Part shown: in pieces, positions 49,214-52,643 of the stretch
Layout: each line of letters opens with the position of its first letter
Numbering within the stretch: the stretch's first letter is position 1
Source of the DNA: Gammaproteobacteria bacterium
GTDB taxonomy: Bacteria; Pseudomonadota; Gammaproteobacteria; Pseudomonadales; Azotimanducaceae
DNA length: 52,707 nucleotides
Reading direction: 5' to 3'
NCBI GenBank assembly: GCA_027297435.1
Contig: JAPUIA010000200.1
Location: 1-52,707, forward strand
Notes under the pieces: model-generated
The model's database searches: none
What the model was told of the DNA's origin: nothing
What the model saw: only the letters and a program-made list of their open reading frames with translations
Translations under genes and position numbers: made by a program

Positions 49214-50764
49214 TTAGGGTTCCATTGAGCGTAAAAACCGCGTTGTCGGAAACGCACCACGCTGCTGCTCGAAAAGCGTAGCAACGTCGATCAGCAGTCG
49301 TTCGGTGTACGGCCTACCGATGAACGCGATGGCGACCGGCAGACCTTTGATCAATGCCGATGGCACCACCACGCTGGGGTAACCGCTGACGGCGGCGATC
49401 GACGAACTACCCAGACTGAAAGTGTCGCCGAGCACCCAGTCGGTCTTCCACGCCGGCGCGTTCACCGGTGCAATCAGGATGTCCAGGTCATGCGCGTCCA
49501 TCACGCCAGCGACGAGACCCCGCATCTTCGTAACACTTCCCGCGACCGCCTCGCGGTAGGCGTCGGTAGCGAGCCCGCCGGTCGCTTCAGCGGCGATGAA
49601 GATCTCCTGGCCAAAAACCGGCATCACCGACTCGGCGTGCGCGTCGTTGAAGGCGATGAGTTCGGCGAGCGTGGTAAATCCCGCGCGGTGTTCGTGAAGA
49701 TAGCGGTTCAGGCCATCCTTGAACTCGTAGAGCAGCACCTGGTAGCCCGCGGCACTCATGTCTCGGTCCAACCCCACCTCAATGGGGTCGACCAGTTCGC
49801 CGCCCAATGCGGTCAAGCGCGCCGCCGCCGCTTCGAACGCGGCGTCCGTCGGTGCGTGACTGCCGGCGCCGAAGTAGTCGCGCACCATGCCGAAGCGCAC
49901 GCCCTCGAGGTTCGCTTGATCCAATCCCTTGGGCAAGGTGGGTGGCGCGAGCAGCGTGGCGTCATCGTCTTCATCGGGTCCCGACATCACGTCCAGCAGC
50001 AACGCCGCACCCTGTACCGTAGTGGCCATGGGTCCCGCCGTGTCTTGGCTTGCCGCTATCGGAACGATGCCGTGCCGGCTGACGAGTCCGACCGTAGGCT
50101 TGATGCCGACCACGCCATTGATGCCGGCCGGGCACACGACCGAACCATTGGTTTCGGTGCCAACCGCTAGCGGAGCCAGCCCCGCCGCCACCGCCACCGC
50201 CGAACCGCTCGACGACCCGCAGGGGTTCCGATCCAGCACATACGCATTCTTGGTCTGACCACCGACGCTGCTCCAACCGCTCACCGATTCGGTGGAACGG
50301 AAGTTGGCCCACTCGCTCAAATTGGCCTTACCCAGGATGATGGCGCCTGCGGCTCTGAGCTTTGCTACGAGGTGGGCATCTTCGGCGGCCCGGTGGTCGG
50401 CCAACGCCAACGAACCGGCACTGGTCACCATGCTGTCCCCGGTATCGATGTTGGCCTTCAGGATGACCGGCAATCCGTGCAAGGGCCCGACTGGGCCGGA
50501 CTCGGCGAAAGCGGCATCCAGCGCGCCGGCGATCTCGAGCGCGGCCGGATTGGTTTCGATGATCGCGTTGGTTGCCGGCCCGTTCACGTCCACGGTTTCG
50601 ATTCGCTCGAGGTAGGCGGTGACGATCTCGGTCGCCGACAACGAGCCCTCGGCGATGGCCGCCTGCAGCTCGGCGACGTTGAGCTCCGTGGTCGCCGCGT
50701 GGGTCGTCCACGCGCACGTCACCAAGCACCACAGCGCTAATGGTTTCGAGAATCTAGGCTTCAC
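49214..50764 (-). CDS. Exported amidase (amidase signature family)
   Basis: A 516-residue hydrolase with a signal peptide ([15 protein letters not shown]). The Ser-cisSer-Lys triad is Lys103 (LKANIDTGD), cis-Ser in [15 protein letters not shown] (183-187) and nucleophile Ser208 in [12 protein letters not shown]. It probably cleaves amides or peptides in the periplasm. The ATG overlaps the end of tesB by 11 bases on the same strand, so the two are likely co-transcribed although their functions look unrelated. Confidence 0.93.
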
Positions 50765-51572
50765 GTTTGCGCATCAATCCTTCCTGCATGGTCGTAGCAA
50801 CGAGTTGGCCATCCGCGGTGAATATCGAACCGCGATTGTAGCCTCGCGCACCGGCCGCCGCCGGGCTATCGAGCGCGTACAACAACCACTGATCGGCACG
50901 CGCCGGGTGATGGAACCACATGGCGTGATCGAGGCTCGCCATCTGCATCTGCGCACGTACGAAGTTGCCGCGATGCGGCAGTCGTGCGGTGGAGAGCAGT
51001 GAATTGTCCGACTCGAACACGATCAGCGCGGCATGCAGGTTCGCGTCGTCGCCGAGTTTGCCGTTGGCCTTGAACCAAAGGAGCTGTTCCGGGGGTTGCG
51101 GGGTATCGGAACTCAGTCTTTTGTGATCGTGGCGCCAACCGAGAAACGCGGAATTCTTGAGTTCGTCCGGCACCATGTCGTCCGTCGGTACCGAGGCGTT
51201 CTGCGGAAAAACGGCCGCATGCTCAAAGCCCCGCTCGCGGCGCTGGAACGACACGTCCATGTTGAAGATGGCCTTGCCGTGCTGGATGACGACCACTCGG
51301 CGAGTAGTAAAGGATTGACCGTCGCGAATCCGTTCGACGTCGATCAGCGCCGGTATCGAGGGATCTCCTGGGCGCAGGAAGTAGCCGTGCAGCGAGTGGG
51401 GCGGACGGTCAGCGTCGACGACGGTCCGCGCTGCCGCGATCAGGCTCTGGGCTATGATCTGTCCGCCATACAGCCGACGTTGGCGATCAGGCGGATGGTA
51501 GGCGCGAAACATGTTGAGCTCGATCTGCTCGAGATCGAGCAGTTCGACCAAATCTGCCAGCGCCTCCCCCAC
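50754..51572 (-). CDS. tesB: Acyl-CoA thioesterase II
   Basis: A 272-residue double hot-dog thioesterase. LYGGQIIAQSLIAA and LHGYFLRPGD are signature stretches, and the catalytic Asp/Thr/Gln set lies in ASLDHAMWFHHP and GYNRGSIFT. The GTG start (51572) is three bases after the stop of the TIR fragment, with GGGGG before it. No AUG is available, and length 272 is slightly short of the usual 285 because the N-terminus is brief. Confidence 0.93.
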   Translation of the reverse strand: MGEALADLVELLDLEQIELNMFRAYHPPDRQRRLYGGQIIAQSLIAAARTVVDADRPPHSLHGYFLRPGDPSIPALIDVERIRDGQSFTTRRVVVIQHGKAIFNMDVSFQRRERGFEHAAVFPQNASVPTDDMVPDELKNSAFLGWRHDHKRLSSDTPQPPEQLLWFKANGKLGDDANLHAALIVFESDNSLLSTARLPHRGNFVRAQMQMASLDHAMWFHHPARADQWLLYALDSPAAAGARGYNRGSIFTADGQLVATTMQEGLMRKREA

Positions 51573-51575
51573 GAC

Positions 51576-51854
51576 TTACCCCCGGACGACTACGGACCTG
51601 ACCTCGTTGCGGCAATTCTGCGACTCGACCGATGCCGGTGTGACGAAGAAGATGAAGAGCCTGGCCCCTTCGATCGCGCCGGCCAACGCCTCGGTCCACC
51701 CGATACTCGCCTCGGTGCCCTCGTCGAACCAAACGTTGAAGCCTGTTTCCTGCCTCCAACGCAATTGGGGGTGCACGCGCGCCGTTTCTTTGTGCGAATA
51801 GCTCACGAAGACGTAGGGTTCATCGCCTTTGTAGGAAGCGTGCGGCCGATCCAT
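51576..51854 (-). pseudogene. Truncated TIR domain
   Basis: A 92-residue frame starting MDRPHASYKGDEPYVFVSYS. DEPYVFVSYSHKE is the TIR box 1, VWFDEGTEAS the BB-loop region and LFIFFVTPASVESQNCRNEV the alphaC region whose Glu84 corresponds to the catalytic Glu of NAD-cleaving TIRs. The frame then ends RSVVVRG and meets tesB directly, so about 40 residues of the domain and any effector domain are missing. It looks like the 5' end of a larger TIR gene left by a rearrangement. No Shine-Dalgarno is seen. Confidence 0.65.
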
Positions 51855-52103: not shown

Positions 52104-52221
52104 GGTTGCTTCCGTCCAAGGCTTTCAACCTTAGGTGGCGGGGCGGCGGCTATGGGTTCAATCCATTTCGCCGCCTCGATTGCTGTAGCTCGCCCGTAGA
52201 CCACTTGGTTAGAATCGTCCG

Positions 52222-52497
52222 ATGCACCTCCCCGCAGACAGTCTGAGTTTCCAATTCGTGCGCTCGAGCGGCCCCGGCGGACAACACGTCAACAAGGTCG
52301 CCTCCGCCGTGCAGCTGCGTCTGGATCTCGCCAAGTCCGGGCTGCCGCAACCCGTACGCGACCGCCTGGTGCGCCTCGCGGGTAAACGCGCCACGACTAA
52401 CGATGAAATCATCATCGTCGCCGAGCGTTTCCGCTCGCAACATCGCAATCGGGCCGATGCCCTCGAACGACTGCAGGCCTTGGTGGATAGTGCCTAG
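52222..52497 (+). CDS. arfB: ArfB peptidyl-tRNA hydrolase domain, ended by an in-frame amber codon
   Basis: ArfB rescues stalled ribosomes by hydrolysing peptidyl-tRNA. Residues 1-91 are its catalytic domain, with the GGQ motif (19-21) in RSSGPGGQHVNK and the later VAERFRSQHRNR. A TAG at 52495-52497 (codon 92) then interrupts the frame, and the basic tail continues in the same frame to a TAA at 52617, giving 131 codons in all, near the usual 135-140. As read, the product lacks the tail that inserts into the empty mRNA channel, known to be needed for activity in E. coli. Recent mutation, sequencing error or UAG read-through are all possible. Confidence 0.85.
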   Translation: MHLPADSLSFQFVRSSGPGGQHVNKVASAVQLRLDLAKSGLPQPVRDRLVRLAGKRATTNDEIIIVAERFRSQHRNRADALERLQALVDSA

Positions 52498-52617
52498 CAC
52501 CGGCCCAAGCGGCGCATCAAGACCAAGCCTTCGAAGTCGGCAAGAATGCGCAGGCTCGATACCAAGAAGCTGCACGGTCATAAAAAGCGTTTGCGTAAAT
52601 CCCCGCCGGCTGAATAA
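52498..52617 (+). other. arfB: ArfB C-terminal tail codons after the amber stop
   Basis: Thirty-nine codons in frame with arfB begin HRPKRRIKTKPSKSARMRRL and end KKRLRKSPPAE before TAA. The Lys/Arg spacing matches the ArfB tail (E. coli RPTRPTRASKERRL). Conservation of the tail beyond the stop argues that the interruption is recent or read through. Confidence 0.8.
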
Positions 52618-52643
52618 CATCTAGAGCGACCCCAAAGGGCACC

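Follow-up and report, generated by a model that had tools for sequence, protein, structure and literature searches.

RF2 is encoded with an in-frame UGA and a frameshift, and is autoregulated. ArfA, another factor that responds to the process it serves, is translated from an mRNA without a stop codon and is reported to be repressed by trans-translation (PMC10107115). ArfB (YaeJ, ICT1) is a codon-independent peptidyl-tRNA hydrolase of alternative ribosome rescue, of which the C-terminal tail is reported to hold most of the essential residues and to occupy the vacant mRNA entry channel (PMC7427801). The gene is far from universal: a survey of 15,259 genomes gives arfB in 58% of them, smpB in 97% and ssrA in 96% (PMC11633108), and in Caulobacter arfB is described as essential once trans-translation is missing (PMC8012679). 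A study of an E. coli strain lacking RF1 reports action of tmRNA, ArfA and ArfB alike at UAG codons (PMC6207430).

The window, that is, the whole stretch of 52,707 bases analysed here, is one entire contig, C114. The draft genome to which it belongs comprises 311 contigs and 4.2 Mb, with a completeness of 97.78% and a contamination of 2.56%. Translation places an arfB gene near the right end of the window, on the plus strand at 52222-52617. ArfB is otherwise read from one continuous frame through head and tail; here the frame is cut in the linker by a TAG, so that the normal product would lack the tail. The features of the region are the following.

50754 to 51572, minus strand: acyl-CoA thioesterase gene (TesB-like), divergent from arfB (Pfam PF02551, 2.4e-35)
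51576 to 51854, minus strand: remnant, 92 codons long, of a gene for a TIR domain, between tesB and arfB (Pfam TIR_2, profile positions 1-75 of 122)
52222 to 52494, plus strand: arfB catalytic (RF-1/GGQ) domain, 91 codons (translation, Pfam PF00472, NCBIfam NF006718)
52495 to 52497, plus strand: in-frame TAG, codon 92, without counterpart in the relatives compared (translation, alignment, profile searches)
52498 to 52614, plus strand: end of the arfB linker and Lys/Arg-rich C-terminal tail, 39 codons (translation, profile of relatives)
52615 to 52617, plus strand: normal arfB stop, TAA (translation)

The first-pass annotation had described a GGQ domain and a Lys/Arg-rich tail in one frame, parted only by TAG at codon 92, and both translation and a profile built from 36 intact relatives bear this out. 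The 91-residue head contains GPGGQHVNK, with the GGQ intact, and is by itself recognised as ArfB by NCBIfam NF006718 (115.5 bits, for a cut-off of 100) and as RF-1 by Pfam PF00472 (5.7e-19); the 39-residue tail, searched alone against Pfam, matched no family. The 36-relative profile spans head, TAG and tail in a single match (positions 2-130 of 132, E 6.7e-55, one TAG inside), which indicates that head and tail are one gene rather than chance neighbours. Its best solved match is the E. coli-type ArfB/YaeJ, chain AY of 4v95. The five tail columns that are invariant in the 36 relatives, R98, R111, K115, K122 and R125 (numbered after the first relative of the alignment, the tail of the window being compared by eye), are all kept in the tail that the DNA encodes. 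R98 aligns with Arg105 of ArfB/YaeJ in 4v95, a residue whose change to alanine is said to cut ArfB activity by 80% (PMC8012679, citing Kogure 2014). The gene is single-copy in this genome, and neither a second copy nor an overlapping contig with another allele was found among the contigs of the draft. An antisense ORF of 156 codons (52150-52620, minus strand) spans all of arfB; it has probably arisen by chance, the frame being GC-rich.

Whether the stop is shared by relatives was asked by alignment and by profile. At the column of the TAG, a variable linker position, all 109 aligned arfB loci have a sense codon and none a stop. These loci comprise the best 80 from named genomes, where 547 stretches were found to code for a relative, plus 29 others drawn from 45 further matching genomes of the nearest 57, the 30th place fetched being the window itself; a few sequences, such as L049 and L101, occur in both collections. 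Two wider profile searches, one class-wide (369 genomes) and one within the family (200 genomes), read through stops and counted them: among the 150 matches listed in each, weaker ones lying outside these figures, the window is the only one with an internal stop. A search with the head alone as query cannot bear on codon 92 and was left out of this evidence. The other genomes of the same genus that were searched have an intact arfB in eight cases out of eight. The first-pass annotation had asked for a conserved stop in close relatives and held that a sense codon there would refute its idea of a read-through device; no relative compared has the stop. As a side observation, arfB comes in two kinds within the genus. 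The window pairs with one other genome (G004), their heads being 64% identical; the heads of the other seven are 47-52% identical to that of the window, and these seven cluster apart, together with L009, in a group that is starred in the tree (comparison of L084 with L099, L102-L106 and L112). Within the genus, arfB may have been transferred or replaced.

Several properties of the tail bear on the age of the change. Its synonymous codon usage is gene-like, since 37.5% of 39-codon segments from long ORFs score as low, and 4.9% of out-of-frame segments score as high. When pairs of equal head identity are compared, the tail of the window is as close to its relatives as the tails of other pairs are to each other, or slightly less so; the difference stays within one standard deviation in each of the five bins, and this comparison gives no positive sign of decay. 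In the arfB tree, which was built by a quick method and has good support at few of its forks, the end branch of the window measures 0.28, for a median of 0.52, and its sister branch has a support of 88 and is not starred. Such a short end branch gives no sign of long decay in this arfB. Together with the short branch, the codon usage of the tail and the residues it has kept point to a recent stop. The letters of the tail suggest that it was under selection until recently, which would be expected alike of a fresh nonsense change, of a sequencing error and of a rare read-through that works.

Loss of ArfB may well be tolerated here. The genome has SmpB and a full tmRNA, the latter confirmed by ARAGORN. 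Within the family, 42 of 200 genomes gave no match better than 1e-8, the remaining hits being read as RF1 and RF2 only and some of the genomes being incomplete, so that arfB seems to be absent from about a fifth of those sampled. Together with the published survey, this makes the absence of arfB a common situation. Since trans-translation is present, and since arfB is seemingly missing from so many relatives, the gene looks dispensable in this organism. Two points go the other way: ArfA was searched for in this genome and not found, so that of ArfA and ArfB only the latter would have been on hand, and in Caulobacter the loss of trans-translation makes arfB essential (PMC8012679).

We therefore favour, with a probability of about 0.62, a single, recent nonsense change in arfB that is private to this lineage. 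Ribosomes would halt at UAG codon 92, read by RF1, and release a 91-residue GGQ domain devoid of the tail that senses the empty mRNA channel. Because the essential residues of ArfB lie mostly in that tail, set in the mRNA entry channel, the tail-less product should not rescue ribosomes and is most likely inactive; tmRNA-SmpB would be left to do the rescue. That the downstream tail is still intact would follow from the youth of the change. The locus resembles the nonsense type of bacterial pseudogene or allele in having one private stop, a dispensable-looking gene and an otherwise undamaged frame, and we saw no difference from that type. Three points of this account are inferences: the organism truly carries the change, the change arose recently, and its product is inactive.

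The DNA upstream of arfB also seems to have been rearranged in this genome. The TIR remnant directly abuts tesB, and no TIR match was found in 118 relative loci (some of them repeats, with flanks of 3 kb or less); the fragment may be what is left of a private insertion. The possibility that the TIR fragment and tesB are a second split gene, with an in-frame stop between them, was discarded, as Pfam shows two unrelated genes. A tesB gene lies beside arfB in only two of the 118 loci. The thioesterase is 70.6% identical to that of L092, where the pair is likewise divergent (genome G026) and closer together, the tesB match ending at 1336 and arfB starting at 1495; it is 68.2% identical to that of L006, where the two genes are adjacent but convergent. 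A rearrangement upstream fits with arfB falling out of use, without being proof of it.

A less likely explanation, yet one to be taken seriously, is that the TAG is an error of consensus or assembly, either a wrong base near a contig end or the allele of a minority strain, the arfB of the organism being intact. The contig, part of a fragmented draft, ends 210 bases past the stop, and its last 808 bases are matched by no other contig of the draft. The intact genes of the relatives compared and a tail without decay would also be expected in that case. However, coverage usually drops within about one short read of contig ends, and 210 bases exceed that length. Nonsense errors are also not widespread in this genome, as none of its 54 ABC_tran matches contains a stop. 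In our estimate, a real change is about twice as likely as an error. A scan by codon score for other split genes found nothing and missed arfB itself; a second one returned 54 unspecific pairs, arfB included. Neither scan was of use. Elsewhere in the draft, three contigs break at tRNA genes (the end of C146, the start of C168 and the end of C113, all of G000), with two tRNA-Gly CCC and one tRNA-Trp, as if assembly broke at near-identical tRNA copies.

The remaining explanations suppose that UAG can be passed. The first-pass annotation had offered, beside a fresh nonsense change, a device that completes ArfB only when termination fails. Spelled out, UAG has RF1 as its sole reader; a failure of RF1 or of termination would let ribosomes through to the tail, and the finished ArfB would release those that are stalled. 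Of these two proposals, the absence of the stop from all relatives compared favours the former, and we consider the device very improbable. What supports it here is the layout and the intact tail, and only these: the tail is in frame, its residues are kept and its codons gene-like, and the logic fits, rescue at UAG having been reported in E. coli without RF1 (PMC6207430). The likeness to RF2 and ArfA would be that ArfB, a rescue factor, is made in full only where termination fails, but in contrast with these the stop of arfB is conserved in none of the relatives compared, same genus included, and no cis-acting signal was found. The RNA between 52470 and 52600 does not fold beyond chance after the stop (z +0.67, 146 of 200 shuffles folding at least as well), and the context of the arfB stop had no match in the viral contigs scanned. 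The C that follows the TAG, proposed earlier as a weak termination context, is indeed present, but it is ordinary: TAG is followed by C at 11 of 44 TAG ends in a looser ORF set, so this context does not single out the arfB stop. No tRNA with a CUA anticodon was seen among 32 tRNA hits, in a fragmented draft where some tRNAs may be missing. Production of the tail alone by a translation re-start was rejected as well: the first in-frame ATG, GTG or TTG past the TAG is at 52546, and a start there would lose 16 of the 39 codons. Finally, for TAG to be a sense codon in this genome, arfB being simply intact, nothing speaks beyond the split gene itself. Such a reassignment, hardly credible, is contradicted by the use of TAG as a stop: over 300 kb (the window and 14 other stretches), 79 long ORFs were called with confidence, and 19 of them end in TAG. 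Of the TAG ends that could be followed, none out of 18 is continued by at least 40 coding-like codons, just as with TAA and TGA. Both release factors are full-length, prfA (RF1) on contig C239 (541.5 bits, cut-off 423) and prfB (RF2) on contig C19 (496.9 bits, cut-off 370), and the tRNA hits again lack CUA.

If the private nonsense change is what it appears to be, its meaning is ordinary: this would be one more case in which a back-up gene for rescue decays while trans-translation still works, in keeping with the seeming lack of arfB in about a fifth of the family genomes sampled. A more speculative prospect, and an exceedingly improbable one, is that the UAG serves as an RF1 sensor private to one lineage, with a trickle of full-length ArfB that would rise as RF1 activity falls, a young recoding switch at the level of the species. 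In the titles and abstract openings of the literature searched, no ArfB under termination feedback is reported, and a working UAG sensor would, if true, be the first known to us.
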